Below, in pieces: positions 4,351 through 38,471 of a DNA stretch of 64,000 bases (positions are counted from its first letter, which is position 1; the number at the start of each line of letters is the position of its first letter). A program made the translations under genes and the position numbers. Origin of the DNA: Cephalotus follicularis (Eukaryota > Streptophyta > Magnoliopsida > Oxalidales > Cephalotaceae). The stretch lies in assembly GCA_001972305.1 (NCBI GenBank), contig BDDD01000563.1, forward strand, positions 83,374 through 147,373. The letters are read 5' to 3'. The notes under the pieces were generated by a model. It had not been told where the DNA came from. It did not search any database and worked only from the letters and a program-made list of their open reading frames with translations.

Positions 4351-5467
4351 AGTGTGGTGGCTTTGCTCACCCAACCTCAGTTGATTTCAGATATGGAGCG
4401 GTTGGATTTGAATTTGTTCGTTGGGGGCTTGGGAGGTTTTATTGCTGGTATGAATGTGGAACCTACCCTTATATCTCAAATTAAGGCGGCTCAGAGTGAT
4501 GATGGTGAATTATGGGCCTTAGTCCAGAATGTGGAAGAGGATAAATAGTCGGAGTTTTATGTGGATGAGCATGGAGTTATCTGATTGGGTGGACGGTTAT
4601 GTGTGCTTACTGATCCTAAAATCAGAGCGGCCATTTTGTAGAGGCACACAGCTCTCCGTTCTTTATATGTCTTGGTTCTACAAAAAATGTGTAGAGATCT
4701 GAAGAGAAATTTCTGGTGGAATGGAATGAAGAGGGATGTAGTGGAATTTGTTGGGAGGTGTTTTATTTGTCAGCAGGTAAAGATCGAACACCAGCGAGCT
4801 AGTGGATTACTGCAACCCTTGGAGATCCCAATATGGAAATGGGAGAGCATTGCGATGGATTTTGTTACAGGCTTGCCAAGGACATTCAGGAGGAATGATG
4901 CCATTTGGGTAGTAGTGGATCGATTTACCAAATCGGCTCACTTCCTAGCTATCAGAGAGTTCTATTCTGTGGATCGATTGGCGGAGATTTTTTAGCAGGA
5001 GATAGTGAGACTTCATGGGACACCGGTATCCATTGTTTCAGATAGGGATCCCCGTTTCACATCTATATTTTGGAAAGGGTTTCAGAAGGCGTGGGGTACG
5101 CGACTCAATTACAGCATGGCTTTCCACCCACAGACGGATGAGTAATCTGAGATGACCATCCAAACCTTAGAGGATATGTTGAGATCTTGTGCTTTAGAGT
5201 GGACTAGAAACTGGGATGAGTTTTTGAGCTTGCTGGAGTTTGCTTACAACAACAGCTGGCACGCTAGCATTCGAATGGCGCCTTTTCAGGCCATGTATCG
5301 GAGGAAGTGTGAAGCTCCAACTTACTGGGATGAGGTAGGAGAAAGAGTTATTGAAGGACCTGAGCTAGTCCAGATCACTATTGAGAAAGTGGCAATAGCA
5401 AGGGAAAGATTGAAGGCAGCTCAATCTCGATAGAAGAGTTATGTGGATAAACATCAGAAGGACTTGG
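4351..5467 (+). pseudogene. Element A integrase, N-terminal and catalytic parts
   Basis: Integrase sequence is spread over three open pieces. The zinc-binding N-terminal end is at about 4640-4780 (WWNGMKRDV, RCFICQQVK). The catalytic core shows WESIAMDFVTGLP with the first acidic residue (about 4840), [10 protein letters not shown] with the second (about 5038), and the region after HPQTDE with the third near 5149. Stops lie at about 4993, 5143 and 5431. The gene is then cut at 5467 by element B. The rest of the domain resumes at 19430. The protein would have inserted element cDNA into the genome. Confidence 0.9.
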
Positions 5468-6797
5468 TGTCACACCCCGTATTTCCCAATCACGTTAAGA
5501 TAAGCATATGTGGTGATATTAGAAATAAGCATAAATAATATTCCAGCACAATTCATAAATAAATTTGCGGAAGCATTCGATAAGCCGGAATATAATACAA
5601 GTCGTCCGGACGCATCCCATACTACGTGCGGGTACAATCTAACCATATCCTTAAACAAAAGGAAATACAACATAACACGGGATGTGATCCGTTCGATACA
5701 ATACAATACATCATAAAGGAAATAACAACCTTAAATTGACAATAGAAGCTCTCCAAGCTTCAGTGGCAATCTCCACACGTCTTCGCTTAATCTGAAATTG
5801 TAGGGGTTAGCCGCTGTCCTCACTTGGCAAAGTAGGAAGATAATGCATGATAAGGAATATATGAATGCAACATGTATGACAGTTTATATCAAAATAACAT
5901 TTAAATGAGCCAATATATGAGCAATCATGCCAAGTGGCCATAAACAATACATATGCAAGAATACCGCACAAGGGTACAATCAATTCATCCATCAATTGGG
6001 TGTCACAGGTCGCTAACTCCTAGCACCAACTGTGCACCACCTATCTATCACCCTACGCTCCGAAGATGATAGATCAGGTAACATTTACTACCGGTGTTGG
6101 CGGGTAGTTTAACAATCAATCTCTGCATTGCAGAATAGTTTGGGTGATACTCTGGCCAACTCCTGGCACCCAGGATCACTTCCGTAGTCAGTGACATCCT
6201 CCATCACTCAACCACGGTAATAACATAGACAAACAATGCAAGCATTTCAATAATAATATTACATATATCCGTAATATGTAATATAAAAGTTGTTTACTTT
6301 AGAAAAATATAACCATTCATTCATCGTATATCTCATTATAGGGAAACGATATCAATTCAATAGTGGTTTCCAGTTTTGGAAACAAAACAGTAGGTACCTT
6401 TCATATAGGAGGAAAATCAGTAGTTCATTTGGAAATAATCATTCATTTGAAAATGATAGTGGATATCATGATTTGGGGACATAGCCCATAGTTGGTTTTA
6501 ATTATTGAATACAAGTGGTAGTGGTGTTAAATGACACCAAAACAGTTTATACTAATATGACAGTAGCATATTCAGTAACAATATCACAAATCAGTAGCAA
6601 TGCAAGGTTCACAATAATAGCATTTCATAGTCACTCATATGCAACTCTCACAAGGAGTGCGTACATTGTTTAGTTTTTGAATGTAATCGTATATGAGGCC
6701 AGGATTAACTGTTTCAGTCATCCATATGGAGGCCAAGTTCATTACATTCAAAATTGAGGCCTTAACAGGACTTATATCAGTAATTTTACCCAGGACA

Positions 6798-6906
6798 GTC
6801 GGCTGCCTTCAAGAATAGCCGACTGCCTTGGTTGAGTAGTCGACTGCTTTGCCTTGGCAGTCGACTGGATAGGTTGAGTAGTCGACTGCCATGAAGAGTA
6901 GTCGAC
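6798..6906. promoter_or_regulatory. Phased palindrome array, six sites at 20-21 bp
   Basis: Six GTCGAC-type hexamers start at 6798, 6818, 6839, 6860, 6881 and 6901, giving steps of 20, 21, 21, 21 and 20 bp. Four are perfect GTCGAC, mostly as CAGTCGACTG or AGTCGACTGC; the first two are GTCGGC and GCCGAC. The spacer bases between cores vary. The same array is present in the other B LTR (about 18032-18145) and in element B2 (62183-62270). A binding site for a DNA-binding protein is an inference from palindromy and helical spacing. Confidence 0.75.
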
Positions 6907-7944
6907 TGCCTCTGCCCAGAAAATACAGGCAGTAGAAAGTCATGCAATTCAAGTTCAATTTCCCATCAATTTCAACACATGTAATCATGCAGAAAATAGA
7001 CATACACTATATGCATACTATATATTCCATAATATATCATTACCCCTACCTTAGATCGTTATCCCAAGATCAATTGGAATGATCTTTCTCTTTGAGTTTC
7101 CAAAGTCTTTTCCACAACAATCTTTCAATTCCAGTAGGTTTAATCTATGTATGCATGTTTATGGACACATGCATTAGTACCAGTAGGTTTCAGTAATTAC
7201 TTATATCAATTACAATTCCAACAGTAGCTTAATCATCAAGTTCCCTAAGTCTTAACTTCCATTTAACAACTTCCTTTGAACTCTATGTCAACTTTAATTC
7301 AATGTTGGATTCATTGATCTTAAGTGTGTTCACAGAAGATGCAATTACATTTAGGAAACCAGTAAGCATATATCCTAACATTAACAACAACTATAATCCA
7401 TTCTAGAGGTTATAGTCACCATTTCCACTTGATCCATTTACCAATTTCCCTTTGAATTCTAGAATATGTTATCTTTAATTATGTTAATAGAAGGTATTCA
7501 ACATTCTCCTAGTTATATTATCATATCATGGCAGTGAGCTCGAGTTTAGAAACTTACCAAGAGTCTAAAGCTTCCAAGTCCTCCTTTGAGCTCTCTAAAT
7601 TATCCAATGCAAGCTTTCAATAATCCTTAGCAACTCTCACTTCACTCAGTGTTTTCTTGCACTCATATCACCATTCAACAGCTGATATAAGGTCAAAAGA
7701 CTTTGAATTCGTCAGATTCCTTTCTAAGTCACATGCACTCATCTTTCTCTCTTTTCTTTCCATCACATGCATCCGTCTCTTCACCTTTCTCTCATTATTT
7801 TTCAATTTGTAGGTTGTAGGTCTGCAGAGAACATGCAAGCATCCCCTTTTGCATGTGGTGGCAGATGGTGACACGCATGTGCCACCTAACACACCTGTCC
7901 TCCTTGTCTCTGCACATGCCAGAAGTATGTCCTGTACTAATCCA

Positions 7945-8020
7945 GTCGATTGGCTTCACTGGGCAGTCGACTGCCTTCAACACGTATCAAACAGTCGACT
8001 GTTGCCCTGTGACAGTCGGC
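7945..8020. promoter_or_regulatory. Second phased palindrome array of B, four sites
   Basis: GTCGAT, GTCGAC, GTCGAC and GTCGGC start at 7945, 7966, 7994 and 8015, with steps of 21, 28 and 21 bp. The same 21-28-21 layout occurs in element B2 at 58217, 58238, 58266 and 58287. In LTR direction this array lies about 175-250 bp from the LTR start, in the U3 side where plant LTR promoters and enhancers normally sit. Confidence 0.72.
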
Positions 8021-8194
8021 TGTTTGGGCTGGTTTAGGGCTTCTTAATTTTGATACTTCACCAATTCCACATCCATTCATCCCAAGCATTTACCAATCAT
8101 AGAAATTAATATAACTGAACAATTAACTCAATTAAAATGTATATTTTATTTAAAATTGGATCAATATACATTAATTGAGGTTACGGTTATTACA

Positions 8195-8240: not shown

Positions 8241-9844
8241 TTACATTCCGAACAAGTGGGGAAATGTCTCCCTCATTTCGTCCTCACACTCCCACGTAGC
8301 TTCCTCCGCACCGTGAAAATGCCACAACACTTTGACCATAGGGATGGTCTTGTTCCTTAGAATCTTTTCCATTTTATCCACAATCCTCGTCGGCCTTTCT
8401 TCATAAGTCAATCTAGGACTAATGAATCCAGGGTCGTAGCTCAAAATGTGAGATGGGTCGGGTACGTATTTCCATAACATGGAAACATGAAATACGTTAT
8501 GTACATCCGACAAGCTAGGCGGTATTGCAATCTGATATGCTACCTCCCCCACTCTCTCCAGTATCTCGTAAGGTCCAATATACCTTGGAGCCAACTTCCC
8601 TTTAAGGCCAAAACGGTGTATCCCTTTCGAAGGCGAAATCTTTAAGAAAACATGATCTCCCTTCTCGAATTCCAGCTTCCTTCTCTTGCTATCGGCGTAA
8701 CTCTTCTGCAGACTTTGTGCAGCTAGCAGTCTCTTCTTGATCATCTCCACTTTATCAGTAGTCTCTTGTACTAGGTCTGGTCCAAGCACTTGTCTCTCAC
8801 CTACCTCGTCCCATCAAATAGGTGATCTGCATTTTCTTTCGTACAAAGCTTCATAGGGAGCCATTCCAATGCTGGTGTGGAAACTGTTGTTGTAAGAGAA
8901 TTCAATCAATGCCAGATGATCCTCCCAACTCCCAGCAAAATCAATATTACAAGCCTGTAGTATATCCTCCAGAGTCTGAATTGTACGCTCGGGCTGTTCA
9001 TCGGTCTGTGGGTGAAATGCAGTGCTAAAGTTGAAGGTTGTTCCCATTGCTGTTTGGAACTTCTTCCAGAACCTCGAAGTGAATCTAGCATCACGGTCAC
9101 AGACAATACTGACTGGCACCCCATGTAATATCACAATTTCCCGGATATACAATCGAGCAAGCTTCTCGATAGAATATGTCATGTTCATCGGAAGGAAGTG
9201 AGCAGACTTAGTGAGTCTTCCCACAACTACCCACACTGCTTCGTGCTGATTTCGTGACCTCGGTAATCCCGACACAAAGTCCATGGTCACATGTTCCCAT
9301 TTCCATTCAACCACTGGTAACGATCGTAGCAGTCCTGCAGGTTTCTGATGTTCAGCCTTCACTCTCTGACAGGTCAAACATCTTGCTACATATTCAGCAA
9401 TTTCCCGTTTCATACCACTCCACCAGTAATTCTTCTTCAGGTCGTGCCACATCTTGGAACTTCCTGGGTGAACACTATACCTCGATTTGTGAGCTTGTTG
9501 TAGTAGCTCATTCTTGATGCTCTCGTCATCCGGAACACATATCCTTCCTCAGAACCTCAAAATGCCATCAGTAGGAATGGAGAATTCAGAATCAGCGTCT
9601 AGATTCTCACGAATGTTCCACAGTTCAGAATCACTATACTGAGCAGTCAGAATACGTTCCAGAAGTTCCGGTTGTGCTCTCATACTTGCCACTATAACTC
9701 GACGGGAAACCATGAACGGATTCCATCTCTAAAATTCCTCCAATAGCTTCCACTACGAAACCATTGCTCCAGTAATCATTGCCTTGTGACTCAGCGCATC
9801 AGCCACTACATTCGCCTTCCCCGGGTGGTATTGAATATTGCAGT
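8241..9844 (-). pseudogene. Element B integrase with C-terminal chromodomain
   Basis: Read right to left from the C insertion. The end of RNase H ([14 protein letters not shown]) lies at about 9780-9840, then the integrase zinc-binding end ([25 protein letters not shown], about 9350-9480), then the catalytic core with [18 protein letters not shown] and TIQTLED. The last open piece (8241-8789, 182 codons) has KYVPDPSHIL and ends in a chromodomain with VKVLWHFHGAEEATWE and a final FPHLFGM. Stops at about 9730, 9750, 9550 and 8812 interrupt one continuous frame. Chromodomains in plant chromoviruses are thought to steer insertion to heterochromatin. The FHVSMLWKYVPDPSH block and chromodomain favour the Tekay-like group. 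Confidence 0.92.
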
Positions 9845-10873
9845 TGAAAATACTATATGGCAACCTTAAACTCAAAATTAATTTGTTTGTGGAATTAACA
9901 AATTAAACTATGAATATAAACAATCACACAAGAACAAATAAATTAAAGAGATAAGGGATAGAGAGTGTGCAAACGAAATTATAGTGGTTCGGCAAATCCG
10001 TGCCTACGTCCACTTTCTCAAGAACCCCTTGAGTTTCCACTAGAATCCACTAGCAACCTTTGATTTTCGGCTTACGGGCGCAAATCAAAGCAAACCACCT
10101 TACACTTGATTTTGGGTTTTGGGTGCAAATGAAACAAACACCTTACAAGGGTTCACTCCCCTCTCTTGCAATGAATGATAAAAAGGATTTGTGTTTACAA
10201 TAACCTCTTAAAGGTTGGATATGAAAGTGATAAAATGTTACAAGCTTTGGGTGTGAAAGTGTAGAACTCTAGCTTGATGTCTTTCTCTTTTGTTTGTAGA
10301 TGTGCAAGATGAGCTTTTGTGATTGGATGTTCAAGAGTTGTGTTCAAGTCACTTTGATCTTCATTCTTGGCTTGTATATATAGCTTTATGTGGATTATAG
10401 CCGTTGGTGAAGAAATAGAGTTGTTGGAGAAGTCTTGGAAATTGTTGCACAAAAGTTGGCTCTTTAAAACAAGTTCTGACATTGTTCCAGCCGACCAAAG
10501 CGTCGACGGTATTGCCTAAAGCGTCGGCGCTTAGGTTACCGTTAGGAGTTAAATTTGAATTTACTCGTTTGGACGCTGGCGGTTTAATTTGGGCGTCGAC
10601 CCTTCGCCATAAAGCGCTGACGCTTTAACCCTAAGCATCGCCGCTTTGAGTGCTTTAAATGATTTTACGCTTCACTGGTTTTAACGGCAGATACAACCTT
10701 CTCAACGGTCGACTCTTTGCCACAAAGCGCTGACGCTTTGATTGTGATCGTCGACGCTTTGCTCTGTTTCTGCACTTCTTCATTTTGCTTATTTCTTTTC
10801 TTGCACAGAAAGTAGCAAAGTTAAATGCAAATTTGTAATCATTAAAACTTAGGATTGAGACTAAAAGTCAACA
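9845..10873 (-). repeat. Element C 3' LTR
   Basis: Matches 12606-13614 apart from scattered substitutions and an extra short segment (about 20 bp near 10405) missing from the other copy. It contains the phased GTCGAC array at 10502-10755. No gene is supported in it. Confidence 0.93.
10502..10755. promoter_or_regulatory. Phased palindrome array in the copia-type LTR
   Basis: Hexamer cores start at 10502 (GTCGAC), 10523 (GTCGGC), 10575 (GCTGGC), 10595 (GTCGAC), 10616 (GCTGAC), 10637 (ATCGCC), 10708 (GTCGAC), 10729 (GCTGAC) and 10750 (GTCGAC). Within the three groups the steps are 21; 20, 21, 21; and 21, 21. The flanks are of the type AAAGCGTCGACGCTTT. In LTR direction the array begins about 120 bp from the LTR start. 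The other C LTR carries it at about 13251-13500. Confidence 0.72.
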
Positions 10874-11538
10874 ATCTCCCCCTTTTTGATGATTACAAAA
10901 ATTTGCTACCTTAAGGAAAAATTTATACCAATTTAAGACAAAAAGAAATTTTCTTTAGATACCAAGACAAGGATTTCTTTTAGATACCAACTTAAAAATT
11001 TTAGATAAACTCCCCCTTAATATGACATTTGATTTTCATTTTTCAAGAAATAAAGATTTATGCAAATGATCCTATCTTTACCATAAACTCCCCCTTTAAC
11101 ACATTTTTCACTAAAAGCACATTTCATTTCTATCTCCCCCTAAGCATAAGCTATCAATTTTTCCTTAAGCATTAAGCATTCTCCCCCTTTTTGTTAGCAT
11201 CAAAAAGATAATGTCAAAGAATTCACACCAATTAAACAATTTTAAAGGGATACATATTGAAAGATACCAATTGAAATAAAAACCTTTTAAAGTTTAAAAA
11301 TATCAATATATAAAGAAAAATTTGAGAGTTACCAATTGTTGGATAAAATGATGCTAAAACCAATTGTTGAAACAATATTATCAATAAAATAATTTAAGAT
11401 TTTGAAAGATACCAAATGAAAATTAAAGATCAAGACAAAGAGAGCAAAATGATACCTCCCCCTCAACAAGAGCTTTCTCCCCAAGTTATGTACTTGAAAT
11501 GATTGAGCTTGACTTCAAGTACACCTACAACACAAGGT
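10874..11538 (-). other. Element C 3' untranslated region and polypurine tract
   Basis: The tract at 10874-10890 reads AAAAAGGGGGAGAT on the minus strand directly before the LTR start TGTTGAC. The rest is AT-rich with repeated CTCCCCCTT-like runs (10874, 11010, 11090, 11136, 11182, 11457), which on the minus strand are additional purine runs. No coding sequence is seen. No pol remnant was recognised here. Confidence 0.7.
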
Positions 11539-12552
11539 TTAAGCTTTTGGTACCCATTTGAACTTGGGTCCTTTCAAGTTTGTAACAAAAGTTCCTTTGG
11601 GAACCCAAATTCTTTTAGTTTTACCATAACAAGGATTATTTCTATAAATGCAAGAGGTAGATACATGTCCTAAACTACCACAATAATTGCAACAAATTTG
11701 AGGCTCATTTTTCTTAACAAAGAAATTTTTAAAATGTTTGACATTTTTTATTTCTTCGTAGCCAAGAACGGCTTTGTCAAACACGCACCTTTGAAGACCT
11801 AAAAGATTTTCCAATTTAGCACTACTATTTGAAAAGGTAGAAAAAGATTTCTTTAAAACATCAATTTCAATTTTTAGCTTTTCATTTTCTTCCATAAAAT
11901 CATTTGACAATTTTGAAGAAACATTTAAAACATCAATCTCATTCATATAAAAGCTATTTTTATCCTTTAGAGATTCAATTTCGTTCACATATTTGCTATT
12001 CTCTTTCTTTAGGTTTTCAATTTTGTTAGACATAGAGATAGCATTTTTCTTTAGAGACTTGTTCTTCAAACAAACATTTTCATATTCTTTAAACAAGTTC
12101 TCATAAGCATTTTGCAATTCATCGAAAGTAAAATTTACCTCATTTTCGCTTTCATCTCCACTTGTATCTTCTTCCATAGCCATAAGACATGAAGTTACAC
12201 CTTCAACGTTCTTTTCTTCATGAAAATCTTCTAACTTATCCCATATCTCCTTTGCCGATTCACAAGAAGAAATACGATCAAATTCGTTAGAACTTAAAGC
12301 ACAAAAAATAATATGTTTGGCCTTAGCATTTAGTTTTAACATTTCTTTTTCCTTTTCATTGTATTTAATTCTTGGTTTAGAGATATATTCTTTAGGCAAT
12401 TCTAGACCAAAAACAATCATATCCCAGAGATCATAATCAAGGGATTGGACAAAGGTGGACATTTTAATTTTCCATTGACTATAATCATTTCCATAAAAAA
12501 ATGGTGGCATGATAATAGACTTATTATCATTAAAACATGAAATGGTTGCCAT
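11539..12552 (-). CDS. gag: Element C Gag, intact frame (copia, SIRE-like)
   Basis: An uninterrupted 337-codon frame begins 53 bases after the end of the 5' LTR, just beyond the PBS. Residues 1-105 match the N-terminal part of copia Gag (FYGNDYSQWKIKMSTF, then SAKEIWDKLEDFHEE). Residues about 140-255 are K, E, N and L rich and look like a long coiled coil. A zinc knuckle C-x2-C-x4-H-x4-C is at residues 288-301, and the tail has the KRIWVPKGT and GPKFKWVPK blocks typical of SIRE-type Gag. The segment that normally lies between the IWD-L-E block and the acidic EEDTSGDESE stretch, about 100 residues of the UBN2 domain, is missing without loss of frame. It is the only long intact frame in the window. 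Whether the protein is made is not known. Confidence 0.9.
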   Translation of the reverse strand: MATISCFNDNKSIIMPPFFYGNDYSQWKIKMSTFVQSLDYDLWDMIVFGLELPKEYISKPRIKYNEKEKEMLKLNAKAKHIIFCALSSNEFDRISSCESAKEIWDKLEDFHEEKNVEGVTSCLMAMEEDTSGDESENEVNFTFDELQNAYENLFKEYENVCLKNKSLKKNAISMSNKIENLKKENSKYVNEIESLKDKNSFYMNEIDVLNVSSKLSNDFMEENEKLKIEIDVLKKSFSTFSNSSAKLENLLGLQRCVFDKAVLGYEEIKNVKHFKNFFVKKNEPQICCNYCGSLGHVSTSCIYRNNPCYGKTKRIWVPKGTFVTNLKGPKFKWVPKA

Positions 12553-12591
12553 GGATCAATTTATCTCAATTAAGATTACTGATAAAAACCC

Positions 12592-12603
12592 GCTCTGATA
12601 CCA
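12592..12603 (-). other. Element C primer binding site (tRNA-iMet type)
   Basis: On the minus strand TGGTATCAGAGC, followed by GGGTTTTT, begins two bases after the LTR end TTTTCA. It is a perfect copy of the usual 12-base core. Confidence 0.92.
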
Positions 12604-12605
12604 AT

Positions 12606-13614
12606 TGAAAATACTATATGGCAAACTTAAACTACAAATTAATTTGTTTGCGGAATTAACAAATTAAACTATGAATATAAACAATCACACAAGAACAAAT
12701 AAATTAAAGAGATAAGGGATAGAGAGTGTGCAAACGAATTTATAGTGGTTCGGCAAATCTGTGCCTACGTCCACTTTCTCAAGAACCCCTTGAGTTTCCA
12801 CTAGAATCCACTAGCAACCTTTGATTTTCGACTTACGGGTGCAAATCAAAGCAAACCACCTTACACTTGATTTTCGGTTCTGGGTGAAAATCAAACAAAC
12901 ACCTTACAAGGGTTCACTCCCCTCTCTTACAATGAAAGATAAAAAGGATTTGTGTTTACAATAACCTCTTAAAGGTTGGATATGAAAGTGATAGAATGTT
13001 ACAAGCTTTGGGTGTGAAAGTGTAGAACTCTAGCTTGATGTCTTTCTCTTTTGTTTGTAGATGTGCAAGATGATATTTTGTGATTGGATGTTCAAGAGTT
13101 GTGTTCAAGTCACTTTGATCTTCATTCTTGGCTTGTATATATAGCTTTATGTGGATTATAGCCGTTGGAGAAGTCTTGGAAATTGTTGCACAAAATTTGG
13201 CTCTTTAAAACAAGTTCTGACATTGTTCCAGCCGACCAAAGCGTCGACGGTATTGCCTAAAGCGTCGGCGCTTAGGTTACCATTAGGAGTTAAATTTGAA
13301 TTTACTCGTTTGGACGCTGGCGCTTTAATCGGGGAGTCGACTCTTTGCCATACAGCGCTGATGCTTTAACCCTAATCGTCGCCGCTTTGAGTGCTTTAAC
13401 TGATTTTGCGCTCCACTGGTTTTAACGGCAGATACAACCTTCTCAAAGGTCGACTCTTTGCCAGAAAGTGCTGACGTTTTGATTGTGACCGTTGGTGCTT
13501 TGCTCTGTTTTTGCACTTCTTCATTTTGCTTATTTCTTTTCTTGCACAGAAAGTAGCAAAGTTAAATGCAAATTTGTAATCATTAAAACTTAGGATTGAG
13601 ACTAAAAGTCAACA
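12606..13614 (-). repeat. Element C 5' LTR
   Basis: Second LTR copy, 1009 bp, TG...CA. It carries the same palindrome array as the partner at about 13251-13500, with more CpG-type changes (for example GTTGGT where the partner has GTCGAC near 13490). The short open frames across it are not meaningful. Confidence 0.93.
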
Positions 13615-14943
13615 ACAGTTGTAATCATTGAAGAATTCCACCCATCGCCTCTGTCTCATGTTGAGCTCCTTCTGGGAAAACAAATACTTCAAGGTCTTAT
13701 GATCAGTGAAGATCTCAAACTGAGCACCATAGAGGTAGCGCCTCCATTTCTGCAAAGCAAACACTATGGCTGCACACTCAAGATCGTGTACGGGATAATT
13801 TTCCTCGTACGGCTTTAACTTCCTTGATGCGTAGGCAATCACTCTGCCATGTTGCATAAGTACGCATCCCAATCCTTTCCCAGAAGCATCTGTGTAGATA
13901 GTAAAACCCTCATTACCTTACTGTAATGCCAACACTGGAACCGAAATCAACCGACTCTTCAACTCTTGGAAACTCGCTTCACAGGAATCATCCCACACAA
14001 AACTGGACTTGTTCTGAGTCAACTGTGTTAGTGGTGTAGCAAGTTTCGAAAATCCCTTGATGAACCTTCGGTAGTAGCTAGCCAAACCCAAGAAACTACG
14101 AACCTCCGTCACATTCTTAGGTTGGGGCCAATCAACAATGCTTTCAATCTTCAAAGGATCCACTGACAATCCTTCACTCGACACTATGTGACCTAAGAAA
14201 GTCACATGATCCAGCCAAAATTCACACTTGTTGAATTTGGCGTACAGCTGTTCCTTCCGTAGCGTCTGTAGTACAATTCTCAAGTGCTGCATGTGTTCCT
14301 CAGTGATCTTCGAGTAGATCAGGATGTCATCTAAGAATATGACGACAAACTGGTCCAGATAAGGTTGGAACACTTTGTTCATTAAACACATAAAGGCTGC
14401 AGGAGCATTTGTCAAACCAAACAGCAGTATCAGAAATTCGTAATGCCCATATCTGGTTCGACATGCGGTTTTCTCCACATCACCTTCTCTGATCCTCAAC
14501 TGATGGTAACCTGTTCTCAGGTCAAGTTTGGAATATACAGTGGAGCCTTGCAATTGGTCGAACAACTCCTCAATATGTGGTAGAGGATACTTGCTCTTGA
14601 CCGTCACTTGATTCAGCAGCCTGTAATCAATGCATAGCCGCATCGATCCATCCTTGTTTTTTACAAATTGAACCGGTGCTCCCCATAGTGATACACTCGG
14701 TCTGATGAAGCCCTTGTCAAGATAATCCTGCAATTGAACCTTCAACTCCTTCTGTTCGGCAGGAGCCATTCGGTACGGTGCTCGGGATATAGGAGCAGTT
14801 CCAGGTAACAACTCAATGCTGAACTCTATATCCCTCTCCGGTGGAAACGAAGTGAGTTCATCTGGAAACACATCAGGGAAATCACATATAACAGGTACTT
14901 GTTCAATACTAGGCGTACCTTTCGTATGATCAATCACGTACAC
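13615..14943 (-). pseudogene. Element B reverse transcriptase and RNase H
   Basis: RT runs from 14943 to about 13960 and RNase H from there to the C insertion at 13614. RT blocks seen are [46 protein letters not shown], the catalytic [13 protein letters not shown] (both aspartates present) and [17 protein letters not shown]. RNase H shows [18 protein letters not shown] and [16 protein letters not shown] with [13 protein letters not shown] stop at 13918-13920 lies between the two domains in the same frame. Apart from that and the C insertion, the frame is clean, so the enzyme was intact until recently. It belongs with the chromodomain-bearing gypsy group. Confidence 0.93.
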
Positions 14944-14961
14944 TAAATAGCCTTCGCATCC

Positions 14962-15405
14962 CTAATTAAGATACTTCTGTGCTCGAGTATATGAAATGAT
15001 TGGAGCAGTAACATTCTTCTCTCCGATAAAATTGTACTCAGTCCCATCTCGCAGATAAAAGGTCATCATCTTATTGTAGCAATCAACACAAGCATGATGA
15101 TCATACAGCCAATCCATCCCCAAGATTACATCAAAATCTCGGATAGGTAACACTATCAAGTCAGCGGATAGTTCAATCCCAGCTATCACGATTTCACAGT
15201 CTTTCATAACAGTATCAGATAGAAGACAAGTACCCACAGTAGTATTCACTTCCAAAACATATGATAGTCTAGAAGTAATACCATGTAAATTGCGAGCAAA
15301 TTCAGATGCAATGAATGAATGTGTCGCACCGGGGTCAATCAATACATGAGCTAATATGTCAGATATGTAAATAGTACCTCCCACAATAGTAGTAGATTCT
15401 GGCAC
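14962..15405 (-). pseudogene. Element B aspartic protease
   Basis: A 147-codon frame with the retropepsin active-site block LIDPGATHSFIASEFA near its start. The usual triad is D-S-G or D-T-G; here serine is replaced by proline, which would probably kill the enzyme. The closing block DVILGMDWLYDHHACVDC is intact. The stop at 14962-14964 separates it from RT in the same frame, so the two were one Pol protein. Confidence 0.9.
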
Positions 15406-15437
15406 ATTATCTTTAGATAAGATATAGACCCTACCTT

Positions 15438-16598
15438 TCAGATCCCCTTTCCGGTGTCTCTCCGCGGTTGAGCAGCCGCAACACTACCACTTGCGCCAGT
15501 ACTTCCCTGTTGGCCGCGTGCATGATCCCTCATCATCGGGCAACCACTCATCAAATGATCCTGTGAACCACACCTCAGGCATTTCCCCATCTTCTTCCAA
15601 CACTCGCTCTCATCATGGTTCCGACGACCGCAAAAAGCACACCCACTTGCATTCTGTTGAATGTTTCGGCCAGGTGTCCTTGATCGTGTGCGTCGAGAAC
15701 CTCCTTGACCTCTGTTGTCAAATCTGGTTGACTTAGCAGGATTATTACTTCCCTGCCCTTGTTACTGTACAGCCCTCGGTTGATTAGTATGAGTCCGTTC
15801 TGCTCTTCTCTCATTCGCGTCAGCCTCAAGAATCATTGCTCTCTCAATAACATCAACAAAAGTGGTCAGCTGCAACATCAATAGTTTAGATCTGATGTCA
15901 GGTCGAAGGCCTTTCAGGAACCTTCGGATCATCCGTGACTCACCCTCCATAAGATAAGGTGTGTGTCTCGCCAGCTCCATGAATCTAGTCTGGTATTGAG
16001 CTACCGTCATATCTCCTTGACGCAACTCCATTAGTTCAGTCTCCCATCGGTCATGCTCAATCTGTGGTACATAAGCCTCAAGAAACTCGGACTGGAATCT
16101 GTCCCAAGTCCTGTCAAGTCCACGGGCTTCCCATTTCTCTTCAGTCCTTTCCCACCAGTAAGTCACCTCGCCCCATAGGCGGTACACAGCAAAACGGAGT
16201 TTCTGATCATCGGTACACTCCAGAGCAGCAAATATCTTCTCCAGATCTCTAATCCACTGCTCTTCCGCAGTAGCATTCATTTCACCATTGAAAGTTGGAG
16301 GATTCTGTCTCATGAACTGCTCCAGATCTCGGCCAAATCCTCCGGCATGGCAAGCGTCAGGTGCTTGCTGATGTGTACGATTAGTCTCGTACATTTGCCG
16401 AATCAGCTCTATGTTGGCCGCGTTCGCTTGCATCTGCTGTTGAAAGAGATCAGCAATGCTGTCAAAGTGACTCCTCTCGTCATACACTGGGGGAACATTA
16501 ACTCCTTCATTCATTGGCGGATCATTTTCAGGTACCGGCGGTGCATTGACTCCTTCATCGGCTCTACGCCTTCCTCTTCTTCCTCTTCGGAGATCCAT
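15438..16598 (-). pseudogene. gag: Element B gag
   Basis: Starts with ATG at 16598, about 105 bases inside the 5' LTR, and reads 278 codons to an in-frame TAA at 15762, probably from CAA. It then continues in the same frame to 15438. The basic N-terminus (RRGRRGRRR) is followed by two near-repeats of EGVN-PPV, the Gag core (EEQWIRDLEKIFAALEC, AVYRLWGEVTYWWERT, ELMELRQGDMTVAQYQTRF), a basic linker, and two zinc knuckles at about 15640-15600 and 15583-15540 (both C-x2-C-x4-H-x4-C). One stop codon is the only clear lesion before the gag-pol junction, where the frame changes. Confidence 0.92.
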
Positions 16599-16688
16599 TC
16601 AGTTTCCTATATGGAATGACATAATCATTAGGAAACAATTTACTTTAATTTCTGAGAAACTTATCCCAGCTTAGCATATGTGGAATAT

Positions 16689-16700
16689 GCTCTGATACCA
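16689..16700 (-). other. Element B primer binding site (tRNA-iMet type)
   Basis: Minus-strand TGGTATCAGAGC three bases inside the 5' LTR end at 16704, with match continuing less perfectly to 16683. It confirms the right-to-left orientation of B. Confidence 0.93.
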
Positions 16701-16703
16701 TGC

Positions 16704-19429
16704 TGTCACACCCCGTATTTCCCAATCATGTTAAGACAAGCATATGTGGTGATATCAGAAATAAGCATAAATAATATTCCAGCACAATTCATAAATAAAT
16801 TTGCAGAAGCATTCGATAAGCCGGAATATAATACAAGTCGTCCGTACGCATCCCATACTACGTGCGGGCACAATCTAACCATATCCTTAAACAAATGGAA
16901 ATACAACATAACACGGAATGTGATCCGTTCGATACAATACAATACATCATAAAGGAAATAACAACTTTAAATTGACAATAGAAGCTCTCCAAGCTTCAGC
17001 GGAAATCTCCACACGTCTTCGCTTAATCTGAAATTGTAGGGGTTAGCCGTTGTCCTCACTTGGCTAAGTAGGAAGATAATGCATGATAAGGAATATATGA
17101 ATGCAACATGTATGACAGTTTATATCAAAATAACATTTAAATGAGCCAATATATGAGCAATCATGCCAAGTGGCCATAAACAATACATATGCAAGAATAC
17201 CGCACAAGGCTACAATCAATTCATCCATCAATTGGGTGTCACAGGTCGCTAACTCCTAGCACCAACTGTGCACCACCTATCTATCACCCTACGCTCCGAA
17301 GATGATAGATCATGTAACATTTACTACCGGCGTTGGCGGGTAGTTTAACAATCAATCTCTGCGTTGCAGAACAGTTTAGGTGATACTCTGGCCAACTCCT
17401 GGCACCCAGGATCACTTCCGTAGTCAGTGACATCCTCCATCACTCAACCACGGTAATAACATAGACAAACAATACAAGTATTTCAATAATAATATTACAT
17501 ATATCCGTAATATGTAATATAAAACTTGTTTACTTTAGAAACATATAACCATTCATTCATCGTACATCTCATTAGAGGGAAACGATATCAATTCAATAGT
17601 GGTTTCTAGTTTGGGAAACAAAACAGTAGGTACCTTTCATATAGGAGGAAAATCAGTAGTTCATTTGGCAATAATCATTCATTTGAAAATGATAGTGGAT
17701 ATCATGATTTGGGTACATAGCCCATAGTTGGTTTCAATTATTGAATACAAGTGGTAGTGGTGTTAAATGACACCAAAACAGTTCATACTAATATGACAGT
17801 AGCATATTCAGTAACAATATCACAAATCAGTAGCAATGCAAGGTTCACAATAATAGCATTTCATAGTCATTCATATGCAACTCTCACAAGGAGTACGTAC
17901 ATTGTTTAGTTTTGGAATGTAATCGTATATGAGGCCAGGATTAACTGTTCCAGTCATCCATACGGAGGCCAAGTTCATTACATTCAAAATTAGGCCTTAA
18001 CAGGACTTATATCAGTAATTTTACCCAGGACAGTCGGCTGCCTTCAAGAATAGCCGACTGCCTTCGTTGAGTAGTCGACTGCTTTGCCTTGGCAGTCGAC
18101 TGGATAGGTTGAGTAGTCGAATGCCATGAAGAGTAGTCGACTGCCTCTGCCCAGAAAATGCAGGTAGTAGCAAGTCATGCAATTCAAGTTCAATTTCCAA
18201 TCATTTTCAACACATGTAATCATGCAGAAAATGGACATACACTATATGCATACTATATCTTCCATAACATATCATTACCCCTACCTTAGATCGTTATCCC
18301 AAGATCAATTGGAATGATCTTTCTCTTTGAGTTTCCAAAGTCTTTTCCACAACAATCTTTCAATTCCAGCAGGTTCAATCTATGTATGCATGTTTATGGA
18401 CACATGCATTAGTACCAGTAGGTTTCAGTAATTACTTATAACAATTACAATTCCAACAGTAGCTTAATCATCAAGTTCCCTAAGTCTTAACTTCCATTTA
18501 ATTACTTCCTTTGAACTCTATGTCAACTATAATTCAATATAGGATTCATTGATCTTAAGTGTGTTGATAGAAGATGCAATTACATTTAGGAAACCAGTAA
18601 GCAAATATCCTAACATTAACAACAACTATAATCCATTCTAGAGGTTATAGTCACCATTTCCACTTGATCCATTTACCAAGTTCCCTTTGAATTCTAGAAT
18701 CTGTTATCTTTAATTATGTTAACAGAAGGTATTCAACATTCTCCTACTTATATTATCATATCATGGCAGTGAGCTCGAGTTTAGAAACTTACCCAGAGTC
18801 TAAAGCTTCCAAGTCCTCCTTTGATCTCTCTAAATCATCCAATGAAAGCTTTCAATAATCCTTAGCAACTCTCACTTCACTCAGTGTTTTCTAACACTCA
18901 TATCACCATTCAACAGCTGATATAAGGTCAAAAGACTTTGAATTCGTCAGATTCCTTTCTAAGTCACATGCACTCATCTTTCTCTCTTTTCTTTCCATCA
19001 CATGCATCCCTCTCTTCACCTTTCTCTCATTATTTTTCAATTTGTAGGTTGTAGGTCTGCAGAGAACATGCAAGCATCCCCTTTTACATGTGGTGGCAGG
19101 TGGTGACACGCATGTGCCACCTAACACACCTGTCCTCCTTGTCTCTGCACATGCCAGAAGTCTGTCCTGTACTAATCCAGTCGACTGGCTTCACTGGGCA
19201 GTCGACTACCTTGAACACGTATCAAACAGTCGATTGTTGCCCTGTGACAGTCGGCTGTTTGGGCTGGTTTAGGGCTTATTAATTTTTATACTTCACCAAT
19301 TGCACATCCATTCATCCCAAGCATTTACCAATAGTAGAAATTAATATAACTGAACAATTAACTCAATTAAAATGTATATTTTATTTAAAATTTGATCAAT
19401 ATACATTAATTGAGGTTGCGGTTATTACA
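16704..19429 (-). repeat. Element B 5' LTR
   Basis: 2726 bp, TGTCACACCCC...GGTTATTACA, aligned end to end with 5468-8194. It has the same two palindrome arrays (about 18032-18145 and 19184-19258). No gene is supported here. Confidence 0.95.
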
Positions 19430-19828
19430 CTTGGAGTTTAAAATAGGTGAACATGTGTTGCTGAAAGTTTGACCTTGGAAAGGAGTTCATCATTTTGGTT
19501 TAAGAGGGAAGTTGAGTCCTCGGTTCGTAGGACCCTTTGGTTAGCTTTTCCTCCACCGCTATCTCATGTCCATAATGTGTTCCATGTGTCTATGTTGAGG
19601 GGTTATCAGTACCATCCCTTTCACGTGGTCCACTATCCTTTGGACAAGATTCATGAGGATTTATCTTATGATGAGGAGGCTGAAGCTATTCTGGATCGAC
19701 AGGAACAAGTTAAGCATAGCAAGACCATTCTGTTTGTCAAGGTGTTGTGGAAGAACCATCCAGAATGAGAAGCTACATGGGAGTTGGAGGAGCATATTCG
19801 GGAAGAATACCCTCACTTGTTTGACTGA
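19430..19828 (+). pseudogene. Element A integrase C-terminus with chromodomain, resumed after B
   Basis: The sequence picks up where A stopped at 5467 (LEFKIGEHVLLKV, KGVHHFGLRGKLSPRFVGPF). A block of about 20 residues usually found before ALPP is missing. Then LSHVHNVFHVSMLRGY leads into a chromodomain with FVKVLWKNHPE, a TGA stop at about 19767 where tryptophan or arginine is normal, then EATWELEEHIREEYPHLFD up to a final stop at about 19826. This is the end of the Pol protein of A. The five bases CTTGG at its start are the duplicated target of B. Confidence 0.88.
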
Positions 19829-19867
19829 GGTATGTGGTTATTTATGATTTCGGGACTAAATCCCTTT

Positions 19868-19881
19868 TAAGGGGAGGTAGA
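19868..19881 (+). other. Element A polypurine tract
   Basis: TAAGGGGAGGTAGA stands directly before the 3' LTR and after the final stop of Pol. It has the purine run and position of a plus-strand primer. Confidence 0.85.
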
Positions 19882-20015
19882 TATAATATGCCGTTTCTAT
19901 GGCTACGTGTTTATCGTTATATGTTGTGTTTATATCTTCTGTTATATGCTAGGTTATTTGGACCATTTGATTTTATTTTGAAAACTTCATTATTTTTTAT
20001 TTTTGAGCGTTAAGC

Positions 20016-20161
20016 GTCGACGCCTTCATTGTAGCGTCGACGCTTTAGCGGACAGGTGTCATAGTTTCTTTCGTGATGAAACACGTCGACGCCTATGAAA
20101 TTGACATCGACGCTGTTGCCATTAAAGGGGTAAGCGTCGACGCTTTTGCATTACCATCGAC
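20016..20161. promoter_or_regulatory. Phased palindrome pairs in A LTR, first group
   Basis: Cores start at 20016 and 20036 (both GTCGAC), 20085 (GTCGAC) and 20106 (ATCGAC), 20136 (GTCGAC) and 20156 (ATCGAC). These are three pairs with inner steps of 20, 21 and 20 bp. Flanks are of the form AAGCGTCGACGCTT. The first core is 134 bp from the LTR start. Confidence 0.74.
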
Positions 20162-20760
20162 GCTTATGTCGGGTTTTCTAATTTTGTTTTGGACAGTGGC
20201 TTAAACTTGAAAAGTGGATTTTTGCCATTAAACCGGTTTTCTGTTTTCCTTCTTTGATTAACACGGTTTCTGCTCATAAGGAAATTGTTAATTCATCAGA
20301 TTTTGTCTTTAGAATGACACGTTTTTGCCATGAAAAGAACTCTCGTTTTCACCTTTCAAAATCACTGCACTATCTGCATACTTTTATCAAACCAAAACAT
20401 CCATTTGTCTCTTTCATCCTGCATCGTTTTGGATGACAACTGAAGGTATTTCCTGAACATAAAAGTTAGTTTTCGTTATGTAGTTTTGTTATTAATCATT
20501 TGTTTGTACTAAAACATGATAAGAATTCGTTTTGATCATGAAACATGAAGCTTGTTTTAAAAAGAATATTTCTTCTGCCATTTTTCAATTGTATGTCCAT
20601 GCAATTATGTGTTTAAATTGTTATAGTGGTATCTTCTAGGCATAAAAGTCATGTTTTAGCATCTGCATGTTACTGTTTCATGATTTGAACAAAGATATTG
20701 GATTATATTTCATGATTTTGGTAAAATACTACAACTGTTTTCATGTTTTCGACGTAAAGT

Positions 20761-21022
20761 GTCGACGCCTATACCTTAGGCGTCGACGTCTGTGTGTATA
20801 AAATCTGATTTAAAGGCCATGGATATGTCTAAGCGTCGACTGTTTCGTTTTTACCATCGACGCCTTTCATTGAGTGTCGATGCTTATGTAGTAAGTGTTG
20901 TAATGTTTTTGTCGACGCTTTGATCCGCGTTTTGGTTCAAGTTGTGTTGAAACCGCCGACGCCTTATGTTAAGCGTCGACGCTCCTATCATGCACGTCGA
21001 TGCTTTTATCCATAACGTCGAC
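20761..21022. promoter_or_regulatory. Phased palindrome array in A LTR, second group
   Basis: Cores start at 20761, 20782, 20835, 20856, 20876, 20911, 20955, 20975, 20996 and 21017. Inner steps are 21; 21, 20; and 20, 21, 21. Most are GTCGAC; ATCGAC, GTCGAT and GCCGAC occur as variants. Confidence 0.73.
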
Positions 21023-21412
21023 GCTTTCTCCTAGCAGTTTGTTAATTTCGTTTTATTTGTTGTAGTAATGTTGGATTAATCTGTTTAGGGTATCGTAACA
21101 TCTGTGGTTGAGTTTAGAGTGTTCCAAGTGTGCTTTTGATTCATATTCGAGTTTGTTTAGATTTCGAACAACTAAGTTATGGATGTTTGTTTCTTGATAT
21201 ATTCCTATGGGTTTTAAATTTATGAACATGTACATATTTTTCGTTATCGGATATTTCTTTCCATTTTATAAAATCCGCTTATTTACTTTATAAATAAAGT
21301 TGTGTATTACTGATTTTATAAATCATCCATGACTTTCACTTTCGAAAGTATGTTGATTTTATGATTCGATATGATATGATTACGGATATGTTCAGAAAAT
21401 GTTCAGAAAATC

Positions 21413-21857
21413 TGTAACACCCCCGAGATGTGGGAGTCGCCACAGTGCATAATACCAAAACTAAACATAACATATCAAAATTTGATAATTCATCTTTATT
21501 AAAAACGTGATGGTTTAAAACTTAACCAAGGCATATAAAAACTAATCATATCGGAAACCTTAAACATAAAACATAATCCAAATGTCATAAACTGAAATTA
21601 ACATAAGTTCATTTTAACTGGTTCCACTATTTTTGTTTTTAAAATAAGATAATTATGTATTTAATAAAATTGTTTGTAATAATATTAAAATATAATATAG
21701 CTACTTATCCAATAACCCAACCCATACCCACAAGCCCAAACAAAATAAGGCTGGTATCAGTCAGCCCCAAACAAAAACCCAACGTAAACATACAATTTCA
21801 TAAACGAAACAATTAAAACCCGTAAGAAAATCACGTACAGGTAAGCAGGGTATTACA
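21413..21857 (-). mobile_element. X1: short solo LTR (445 bp)
   Basis: Runs TGTAACACCCCC...GGGTATTACA and is flanked on both sides by AAATC (21408-21412 and 21858-21862). The other A LTR has the empty site at about 280-285. There is no internal region or PBS. The minus-strand reading (TGTAATACCCTG ... GGGGGTGTTACA) looks like a gypsy LTR in the style of A, so minus is the likelier orientation. No gene. Confidence 0.9.
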
Positions 21858-22168
21858 AAATCTGTTTATATTTTGAATTGTTTTTCAATAAAACCATATT
21901 TTTGAATAATGACATACAGAGTTATACTTAGCTATGTGGTCTCATAGGCATGTTCTTTGGCACGGAGAACATGACACCTACCGTGGCGGTGTGATCGGTC
22001 TACGGCGTCTCTCTTTTTATCCTGTGGGTAGGATATGGATCCAATTGAGGCGTATGGGTCGATCCTAGTTATTATCGGATTCAGATTTTGGGAATTGTTT
22101 GTGTAGTACCGTACACGTCGTTCCGTCTGACATGTGGGCGTCATGAACCCCTTGCATATTATATTTAT

Positions 22169-24100
22169 TCTAACGCCCCCGATCCGAGTTCACTTTATGC
22201 TCAAAGCGAGCTTCGAGGATACGGTGCGTTACGTGGGGGTGAAATCTTTAATCCTTTAACAATCATATGAATTGTTAACATTTATCAAACCTCTCATAAT
22301 TTTACAACATTTCCATATTAAACTTCAAAAATATCATGCTTTCTTCGAATTCATCATAAACCACATAGATTATAGTCAATGTATTTATAAAACATTATCA
22401 GAATACATTTCTCAGCGGAAAACATTAACTTATTGCATTAAAATCAGTTTATACAAAAAATTAATGTATAACATAATTCTTTTTCAAAAGCTTCATTTAT
22501 GAGCTCCCTCTAAAGATCGAAATCTCTTCGTTCATCCATTCCCTGGAAAATTTTATTTCAAAACACAAATTTGAAAGGAATGAGCTTAAATAGCCCAGTA
22601 AGGGTTTCAAAATAAACATTTCATCACATTCATTCTTTTCTTTTCATATCTCATGAAACATAACATTTCATTTCTTTTTCTGATCATATTTCATGAATCA
22701 GAACATTTCATAAATAACTGAGGGGTTGTATAAACTTAAATAATCCAACTGAAACCTTTTGCTTCACTGGGGCATTGTGTACTCCCCGATTACAATCCTT
22801 ACATCACATGCATGTCCATGAGCCCTCACGCTCATTTAATCCTTCTCGGATTAATCCCCCTTGGATCGCAACCCAAGAGTTGTTCATCTCAGTTTATTAT
22901 CTTTTGATAAAATCATTTCTTAATACTTTGAGTGATCAACTCAAGATATTTGTAAAAATAAATTCGTACACCACTTGTAAAAATGAAATAACGATAAAAT
23001 TATAGCAAACATTTCAATAATTTTAGGATGATAAAATCATAACTTCATTGGAAATAATAGCAGAATATGAGCAATAATTTTAAACATAGAATTTCATCAA
23101 GAATTTGGCAGAAATTCGAATTATGTAAAACATAACGATTTGCTGTATAATTTCCAGAAATAACATAAATTACTTTGACATAACATAAAGTATTTTGGCA
23201 TAAAAGTATAAAATAATATACTTTGAGAAAGTGAGTAAAAATTTTCCTTACATTGCTTTAAATCTCCTTCTCTCCTATTCTACTCTGAGGTGATTTCTAC
23301 ACCGAAACTTTAGCAAAATTCTCCTTTTTTTTTTTCTCTCATCTTCTCTCTTTTTCTTTCTCTCCTTCTTTCTCTCTTTCTTTTCTCTCCTTCTCAGTCT
23401 CTCTCTCAGTAATTTCTTGGCAAAAGGAACGTTACATTTACCCATATTTATAGGAGAGTTAATCTACATATTTCTTACCCTCGTGCGTTACCATATAACA
23501 TCGTCCACGTTATACCACCCATGTGTTAAAATTTCCATCCTCCATATAAATGAAAAATATCCCTTGTTTATGTTAAAAATAATCACAGGCAGCTAAATAT
23601 CCCAATTCCTTCACCCGTCTGTCGACACGCGTCCATAATTAGTATAATTAATTCACTAAACGACAAAAAAAAAATGAGATAAGCGTCGGCGCTTTCAAAT
23701 TTTCACTACTCTAAGAGTTGACGCTTTAAAAGCGCTGCCACTTTACTACTAAGCATCACCAGTTTAGCGCTTTTTTACAAAGGAAATAACACTTGAAAGC
23801 GTTGTCACTTTCTCCATTACGCTAAAACAAACCGTCGATGCTTTAAGCTTAATAAGCGTTGTTGGTTTAAACGTATAACCGTCGCTGCTTTCTCCAATAC
23901 ACTAAAACAAACCGTTGACACTTTAGTGTGTTTTAGGTACAAAAATTGCGCTTTAATATAAGATAGTCGATGCTTTCGTGCATACGTAATGCACACGTGA
24001 CGCGTAATGCAACACTTCTTACTCCATGGCTTATAACCCAGTACTCTAAAACAAACACATTTCTATAAACAATAATTTCAACAAAATTCTGGTCATTACA
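22169..24100 (-). mobile_element. X2: solo LTR (about 1.93 kb)
   Basis: Starts TCTAACGCCCCC (TG changed to TC) and ends GGTCATTACA. The empty site is visible in the other A LTR at about 575-585. The flanks TTTAT and TATAT are a target duplication with one change. A pyrimidine-rich stretch lies at 23320-23410 and decayed palindromes at 23685-23971. No internal region or coding sequence remains. Reading on the minus strand gives a normal LTR start TGTAATGACC. Confidence 0.88.
23685..23971. promoter_or_regulatory. Decayed palindrome array in X2
   Basis: Sites such as AAGCGTCGGCGCTT (core 23685), GTTGAC (23717), GCTGCC (23734), ATCACC (23755), GTCGAT (23834), GTCGCT (23881), GTTGAC (23914) and GTCGAT (23966). 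Only one step is exactly 21 bp. Most cores differ from GTCGAC by C-to-T or G-to-A. In LTR direction the array starts about 130 bp from the LTR start. Confidence 0.5.
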
Positions 24101-24683
24101 TATATGTACATCGGATCTCTATATGGAATTATGAAATCGGATAAATTATGATATTTGCTATTCGGATAAATTCATAGTTTGGGAAATTATGAAATTTGGA
24201 AATTTTGAGATTTTATTTATGTTTTATGTGAGTATTCTGTTTTACTTATGCAAGAATATTTTAATCATGTTTATATGAAATTCATGATTTTAAAGCTCGG
24301 ATATTTGTTTATCTTTTAAATTTATATTTACTGTTTTATATTCTTTATCCGTACTGAGATTTGCTCAGCCGCGTTTTGTTTGCTAAGTGGCAGGTTATTA
24401 GGAACATCGGGGAAATGTGTGAAGAGAGATGTCCACCTATATCTGAGGATCCTCTAGGAGTTTGGTCTTATGGTGTTCTGTTGTTTTATGGTCATGACTA
24501 GGCCAGTTCTATGAACAATATTTTGACTTTGGATTATGTTATGATTTTCAGACTGTGATTTTCAGAATTTGGTTTTGATATCAAATCATGTTTTGACCAC
24601 CACGTTTTGAATAAAGTTAAGTTTATGTTTTGATCTGTTCTTTTATCTGTTCTGTAAGCACTTCCACCGTCGGGGGTGTTACA

Positions 24684-25116
24684 TATGTTCCTTAAGGAAC
24701 TTAACAACCACAGAGTTGTCATTGGTTTGACAAGGTATCGCCTCAATCCACTTTGAGACAGTCAACAACCAGAATGATATATAAATTCCAAAATGAATTG
24801 GGAAATGAACCCATGAAATCGATGCCCCAAATATAAAAAATCTCCACAGTCAAAATTGGAGTCAAAGGCACCATATTTAGCTTGGTCACACGGCCTAAAG
24901 ATTGATGTGATGCACAAGCCCTACAGTACTGAAAAGCATCTTTAAAAATGGTCGGGCAATAAAAACCACATTATAAAACCTTGGCCCCTGTCTTTGTTGG
25001 GCGAAAATGACCACCAAAGGTCTGATCATGACAAAAAAAAGAGTATAGATCGACACTTATGATCAGGAACACATCGTCGCATAATCTGGTCGGGACATGC
25101 TTTAAACCGGTAAGGA
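24684..25116 (-). pseudogene. Element H integrase, cut by element A
   Basis: Minus-strand fragments show FKDAFQYCRACASHQ (zinc-binding end, about 24930), a WGIDFMGSFP block with the first catalytic aspartate (about 24815), LYIILVVDCLKVD, and NDNSVVVKFLKE (about 24690), after which A begins. Frame breaks are frequent. The wording of these blocks is that of the Athila group of Ty3/gypsy. The rest of the domain must lie left of the window, on the far side of A. Confidence 0.82.
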
Positions 25117-36525: not shown

Positions 36526-36838
36526 GACCACCTGGAAGACCTATAGCCACTGCAAGGGTGTACAATTTGAAGATGGGTACAAGCCTTACCACTCCCGCTA
36601 AGGATGAAGGTAAGTTTGTTTCTTCGAATTATGTTTTGGTTAGGTGATGATGATAAGATGGGAGTTGGTAAGTGGGCTGGCAATGCCTTCTTGGTTAGTG
36701 GAGTTCGGCTTTGAGAGAGAGAAGTGAGAGAGAGCTTAACTTCCTCTCTTACTCAAATAATCCCGAAGCTCATAAAAAAAATTATACAGCAAGGAAAAGT
36801 TTTTATATATACACCATAAACAGCAACGGGGCGTTACA
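36526..36838 (-). repeat. Extra segment and second LTR terminus beside the left LTR of G
   Basis: About 210 bp of sequence with no counterpart in the right LTR is followed by a second copy of the LTR end (CTTCCTCTCTTACTCAA at about 36738, ending GGGGCGTTACA at 36838). This second copy contains a partial internal duplication (TTATACAGCAAGG ... ATACACCATAAACAG). The polypurine tract follows 36838, not 36525. The origin is unclear: a nested partial LTR, or recombination between related LTRs. Confidence 0.75.
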
Positions 36839-36852
36839 TCCTCCCCACCTTA
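36839..36852 (-). other. Element G polypurine tract
   Basis: Minus-strand TAAGGTGGGGAGGA directly before the LTR start, preceded by the end of Pol (NFEDKIS and a stop). This is the normal end structure of a chromodomain-bearing gypsy element. Confidence 0.85.
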
Positions 36853-38331: not shown

Positions 38332-38456
38332 ATCGTCTTCTACAACAACATACTAACGTTTCACGAAAACGTCGTAAATATATGCCATGCATGAATGCAA
38401 CCCCAAGAGATACCCCACTAACTAACATAAAAAGCACAAGGAAAATGCAAACCTTC

Positions 38457-38468: not shown

Positions 38469-38471
38469 ACT

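Follow-up and report, generated by a model that had tools for sequence, protein, structure and literature searches.

Regularly spaced palindrome arrays in the long terminal repeats of gypsy and copia retrotransposons of Cephalotus follicularis: probable protein-binding regulatory arrays

Why do retrotransposons of two superfamilies carry clusters of the same short palindrome in long terminal repeats (LTRs) that do not otherwise look alike? The question is raised by a 64,000-nucleotide stretch of the Cephalotus follicularis genome (contig BDDD01000563.1, C563:83374-147373; hereafter the window), in which an earlier note had pointed to arrays of GTCGAC-type cores in the LTRs of three elements, here called A, B and C. 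In this work we analyze these arrays in the window, in further stretches of the assembly (designated by L numbers) and through genome-wide counts covering the 1.577 Gb assembly. Our results indicate that they are very probably protein-binding regulatory arrays under selection, and tentatively point to a protein encoded by copia elements as the factor that reads them.

The window contains 47 copies of GTCGAC, whereas 200 dinucleotide shuffles average 5.2 and never exceed 14, and it has 11 pairs of GTCGAC sites 19-22 bp apart, against a shuffle mean of 0.005 and a maximum of 1. These sites are concentrated in LTRs, with 37 in the 17.3 kb of LTR sequence of A, B, C and a second, rearranged A-family copy (A2, 58031-63610), and two in the 12.9 kb of their internal regions. 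Element D (33938..41204, minus strand; LTRs 33938-36489 and 38583-41204) constitutes a real negative control, having one GTCGAC only in 5.2 kb of LTR. The enrichment extends to a genome sample of 20 stretches of 10 kb, picked by contig number and not by a random generator (178 kb readable, one stretch wholly masked), where GTCGAC is 6.45-fold enriched over a first-order model and ranks first among the 64 palindromic hexamers. In this sample it forms 21 pairs at 19-22 bp, the next hexamer reaching five; within 120 bp, ATATAT and TATATA form 253 and 214 pairs and GTCGAC 75. Using the reversed version of each pattern as control, genome-wide searches return 224,538 matches to GTCGACN{4,34}GTCGAC against 3,925, 18,108 to AAGCGTCGACGCTT against 15, and 15,868 to GCAGTCGACTGC against 36. 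The step measures 19-22 bp in 81 of the 100 GTCGAC pairs among the matches listed, which come from the start of one contig, include LTR pairs and are not independent. Shuffles, hexamer ranking and genome counts thus rule out chance or base composition as the source of the arrays, which the earlier note had named as an outcome that would undo its claim. A general 10.5-bp phase was also rejected: spacings peak specifically at 20-21 bp and, to a minor degree, at 27-29 bp, and we therefore claim two-turn steps only.

Within the window the arrays map to three nested elements, C lying inside A and A inside B, that were delimited by self-BLAST (E up to 1e-5, alignments of at least 60 bp). Element A, on the minus strand, has LTRs at 5465..8194 (3' LTR, 2,730 bp, starting with TGTAATAACC) and 16701..19429 (5' LTR) that are 96.9% identical. 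Domain matches to a gypsy gag and RVT_1 assign it to Ty3/gypsy, and the five protein matches of its gag are all from Cephalotus follicularis. RVT_1, with the Ty3 reverse transcriptase among the nearest solved structures, places element B in the same superfamily; its 3' LTR spans about 19884..24689 on the plus strand, its 5' LTR, which starts before the window at about L029:406, reaches to near 1191, and the two are about 88.6% identical in the stretch compared. Element C (9841-13615, minus strand) has a 3' LTR at 9841..10874 and a 5' LTR at 12602..13615, 94% identical, and a copia-type gag (PF14223) open reading frame (ORF) was the sole content found between them; C therefore resembles a non-autonomous element with gag alone that sits inside a gypsy element. 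As the earlier note had stated, the LTRs of A, B and C share no similarity detectable in the window self-comparison. The array carriers are marked as gypsy or copia elements, and not Mu-like DNA transposons, by gag/pol and LTR pairs.

The 3' LTR of A contains an array of six RYCGAC-type sites at 20-21 bp steps (CAGTCGACTG flavour, 6798..6906, minus strand) and a second one near the LTR 5' end (7945..8020, minus), with counterparts in the 5' LTR at 18033..18141 and 19180..19255 (both minus). The 3' LTR of B bears arrays at 20016..20161 (AAGCGTCGACGCTT flavour, plus strand, present in the B 5' LTR too) and 20761..21022 (plus). Those of C lie at 10502..10755 in the 3' LTR, upstream of TATATA, and at 13243..13454 in the 5' LTR (both minus). 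On the plus strand, the second, rearranged A-family copy bears arrays at 58217..58292 and, in its full LTR, at 62183..62250; together with 6798-6906 and 7945-8020 these are A-family arrays outside the interval of the earlier note. Some particulars of that note need amending. Of its named cores, CAGTCGACTG occurs eight times in the window and exact AAGCGTCGACGCTT once, at 20132. An array is indeed present in C, but its intact GTCGAC sites lie 42-113 bp apart instead of following 20-21 bp steps, and a 21-bp step emerges only with the GTCGGC variant included (10502 and 10523).

Across 84 deduplicated sample sites, dyad symmetry reaches past the core: positions -1/+1 are complementary at 59 sites, where 31.8 are expected (z 6.1), and the effect fades out to about +/-5. 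Of nine control palindromes tested in these stretches, ATCGAT alone rises above z 3 at +/-1 (3.1). Two main flavours are found, AAGC-GTCGAC-GCTT (C/G next to the core) and CA-GTCGAC-TG (A/T next to the core), and their halves rarely mix. The hybrid flank AGCGTCGACTGC occurs 477 + 449 times genome-wide against roughly 34,000 expected from independent halves, an expectation that takes the count of the 14-mer AAGCGTCGACGCTT as a lower bound for the 12-mer AGCGTCGACGCT; flavour and hybrid counts both refer to copies related by descent, not to independent events. The core tolerates few changes. In-register CG-centred hexamers in the local set are GTCGAC (59), GCCGAC (17) and ATCGAC (14) out of 101, and the first two positions of the second site in 100 listed matches to GTCGACN{14,15}NNCGAC are GT (81), GC (8), AT (7), GA (2) and GG (2), so that RYCGAC (GTCGAC, GCCGAC or ATCGAC) describes 90 of the local and 96 of the listed genome-wide sites. 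Over 652 tested positions, in-register decay amounts to 4 C3>T, 18 T2>C and 15 G1>A changes. As a separate observation, sampled stretches L005-L024 show a 3.05-fold enrichment of GACGTC as well, with 28 of its pairs within 120 bp; it overlaps the AGACGTCGACG flavour, and its flanks, unlike those of GTCGAC, have no dyad extension.

These properties bear on the notion that the arrays are functionless mutational by-products, that is, slippage-prone minisatellites containing a CpG palindrome. Neighbouring spacers do resemble each other more than spacers paired at random (0.536 vs 0.427), as such an origin would have it. Against it stand the dyad covariation, a core that is kept while spacers vary, the scarcity of C3>T decay, and the near restriction of sites to the LTRs of unrelated families and the upstream gap of one gene, and we deem this explanation very improbable.

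Clustering of unmasked sequences merged 21 of 26 array clusters because arrays align with arrays; once arrays were masked, the 26 clusters fell into eight linked sets, flanks being compared within 700 bp at E up to 1e-4. Some links were discounted by hand because they reflect adjacency of elements in the window, the pol end at L022:198 or a single match of 22 bp (L011-L012), which leaves at least ten array groups without flank homology, in both superfamilies, and the single lineage that the earlier note had allowed for is not what is seen. L022:80-223 adjoins a stretch resembling the end of the A pol. Array-bearing LTRs belong to gypsy A and B and to copia C, L009, L021, L022 and L030; in copia L010 the array sits in a presumed LTR, beyond the portion to which the partner LTR aligns. 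L030 and L031, chosen from the GTCGAC-pair listing as likely LTR pairs with their content not known beforehand, proved to be a copia element and another A-family gypsy element, respectively.

Flavour cuts across superfamilies. The A-family copies A1, A2, L012 and L031 have the A/T flavour at each of their 27 intact sites, as does copia L010 at its 13, and in gypsy B and copia L022, L030 and L024 the C/G flavour predominates, with 0 or 1 A/T site. Within the A family, the solo LTR L004 has the same LTR start and a 3' third that is 73-98% identical by 100-bp bins, and its five intact sites comprise two C/G, no A/T and three mixed. Counted from the LTR start, its arrays occupy 162-247 and 1248-1375, and those of A1 occupy 175-245 and 1289-1392; the two sets were matched by distance, the bins there being about 24-49% identical and too diverged for safe alignment. 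Whole-array flavour thus differs between related elements, as judged from this one divergent LTR. The sharing of flavours between gypsy A and copia L010, and between gypsy B and several copia elements, might suggest that U3 segments spread by recombination or template switching, making the arrays related by descent. The ten or more groups without flank homology when arrays are masked, spacers that do not match between families and the deviant flavour of L004 speak against such exchange, which we regard as quite unlikely. Movement between elements, one of the two options of the earlier note, is not supported in the form of a mobile block: no common cassette was found, families have different spacers, and flavour varies inside one LTR family at similar distances from the LTR start.

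In seven of nine copia LTRs examined, the last site lies 77-122 bp upstream of the TATA box (C 93 and 113; L009a 122; L009b 78; L009c 77; L021b 108; L022 93), with L021a (542 bp) and L010 (467 bp) off the pattern; this placement refers to copia LTRs. The element internal regions examined have few sites, the one exception being the gap before an extra PF20167 gene that some array-bearing copia elements carry in sense orientation after pol (L022:3022-4269, L024:1084-1818, L030:5626-6870). This gap has 7.9 sites per kb in L022, 7.9 in L030 and 11.5 in L024, and densities elsewhere are 0-0.5 in gag-pol and 0-0.8 in the PF20167 gene; L030 has two scattered sites between the gene and the 3' LTR. The L022 and L030 gaps are homologous to each other, and the protein of L024 shares 52% identity with the closest of the query proteins. 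Eight more PF20167 loci (L032-L039) have 2-3 sites each within 400 bp upstream, these loci being 91-100% identical to protein P0006 and hence not independent. Three sites that include a 19-22 bp step occur in 7.6% of random 500-bp windows. The L030 pair (AAGC type, 7.8 kb apart) contains a PF20167 gene, and none was found by tblastn in gypsy L031 (CAG type), with 0.4 kb masked. All 120 PF20167 protein matches among those listed are from Cephalotus follicularis. The predicted PF20167 fold resembles VANC21 in a model of a shorter protein (94 sequences, predicted local distance difference test [pLDDT] 76; first model, pLDDT 52); sequence searches found no similarity to VANC or to the plant mobile domain. 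The PF20167 match in L026 is cut by the stretch end, and the family is massively amplified genome-wide (15,507 first-look candidates for P0006; all 100 that were scored matched).

We put forward, as a plausible reading that falls short of probable, that a palindrome-reading protein, probably a dimer, docks on the arrays as cis-regulatory sites, and that this protein is most likely the copia-encoded PF20167 product acting as a VANC-like activator or anti-silencer. A sequence-specific, probably dimeric protein family would read RYCGAC-type palindromes at two-turn (20-21 bp) spacing, and the bound protein would help transcription from the LTR promoter, leading unrelated LTR retrotransposons to gain and keep arrays. 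The PF20167 product would bind the LTR and the promoter of its own gene, and gypsy A and B and copia-type C, which lack the gene, would exploit it in trans. What speaks for an element-encoded factor is the VANC-like fold, the arrays on its own gene and the differing whole-array flavours, as in VANC targets. In a more specific and rather doubtful version, the copia VANC-fold protein would lift silencing through LTR and promoter arrays that gypsy and non-autonomous elements have adopted in turn, and would be a good shared across superfamilies, with at least two flavours marking distinct specificity groups.

Repeated gain and retention under selection, as proposed in the earlier note, fit these results; the host factor to which that note attributed them is one candidate, with PF20167 as the alternative. 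RYCGAC is a binding site of barley CBF, and the arrays might be enhancers for a host transcription factor, such as an AP2/ERF protein of the DREB/CBF type, gained convergently by LTR families. The fit of listed sites to RYCGAC and the placement upstream of TATA boxes agree with this, as do precedents in two reports: maize transposable element (TE) families tied to stress response bear A/GCCGACNT sites (PMC4287451), and COPIA LTRs have recurrently gained heat elements (PMC5059998). The contribution of tandem duplication indicated by spacer likeness tells in part against both a host factor and our PF20167 proposal. The classic DREB/CBF site ACCGAC, however, is found at none of the 100 in-register sites among the matches listed and none of the 101 local ones, GCCGAC being present. 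Furthermore, a single AP2 domain explains neither why the dyad reaches to about 14 bp nor why hybrid flanks are scarce, and different whole-array flavours in one family suggest at least two proteins differing in flank preference. We consider a host activator a genuine possibility, without calling it probable. A host repressor or silencing factor, with sites kept for another reason, would fit the anatomy as any sequence-specific binder would, yet repressor sites should vanish from successful elements, and the 99.5% identical L030 LTR pair keeps 6 and 7; we think this unlikely.

The closest known parallel to the PF20167 proposal is the VANC/VANDAL system of Arabidopsis Mutator-like elements (MULEs), for which PMC5735166 describes a short motif densely arrayed in non-coding parts of the elements, also beside the factor gene, motif versions that change together between related elements, and occurrence of the motif in the unrelated AT9TSD1. 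The Cephalotus arrays likewise lie in non-coding regions, including the region before the candidate factor gene, and diverge together between related elements, in one divergent LTR. They differ in being carried by LTR retrotransposons and not MULEs, in their palindromic motifs at 20-21 bp steps common to gypsy and copia, and in a candidate protein that resembles VANC in predicted fold and not in sequence. With ONSEN and other COPIA LTRs they share clusters of transcription-factor-like motifs in LTRs, gained more than once (PMC5059998), and, in the seven copia LTRs noted above, a position in U3 upstream of the core promoter; unlike ONSEN, they occur in both superfamilies, with very many sites, regular steps, different flavours and a putative factor. 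The maize DREB/CBF sites (PMC4287451) also fit RYCGAC and span several TE families; the Cephalotus sites differ from them in their arrays and dyad extension, and in that ACCGAC does not occur among the 100 listed. Plant LTR retrotransposons are known to carry genes beyond gag and pol, that of maize Grande having its own promoter (PMC7264820); unlike such ORFs, PF20167 is in sense in copia and is preceded by the array type of its own LTR. Whether extra LTR-element proteins shape the methylation of those elements is asked in a 2026 paper (PMC12844716).

If the arrays bind one protein family, mobile elements that are unrelated would share one regulatory code in a plant genome on a large scale, with more than 220,000 site pairs. 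LTR retrotransposons would then offer a way to test the arms race in which silencing is met by anti-silencing, the flavours providing a natural experiment on the joint change of binding specificity and arrays. To our knowledge, no LTR element has been described as encoding an anti-silencing factor that is sequence-specific, and none was seen among the papers listed on the subject. In keeping with the earlier note, no account of such arrays was seen in the titles and abstract starts of the open-access papers listed for the motif, for palindromes and tandem repeats of LTRs, and for Cephalotus.

Weaker and altered arrays are the only counterparts found for the elements that the earlier note called X2, F1 and F2. 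A weaker array of AAAGCGTCGACACTT type lies at 31782..31891, and two sites 21 bp apart at 32570..32596 have flanks homologous to L006. A third flavour, GGCGTYRACGCC, forms altered arrays with GTCAAC and GTTAAC cores in a copia-related repeat (46392..46705, second copy at 49359..49680), whose family has copies at 46340-46740, 49320-49720, L006 and L026. Four diverged copies retain GTTAAC as the core at a matching position, and it may be a true variant rather than a product of CpG decay. Two LTR-like units of about 3 kb (45440-48502 and 48525-51483) adjoin there with almost no internal region. Around a Transposase_21 gene (tnp2, CACTA-type, PF02992) at 55439-56677, the interval 51701-58030 contains no GTCGAC. 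Outside the window, L017 and L007 contain long tandem arrays, with periods of about 100/400 bp and about 163 bp, that are probably satellites, and in L017 seven in-register spacers follow in a run between CAG-flavour sites from position 4156.

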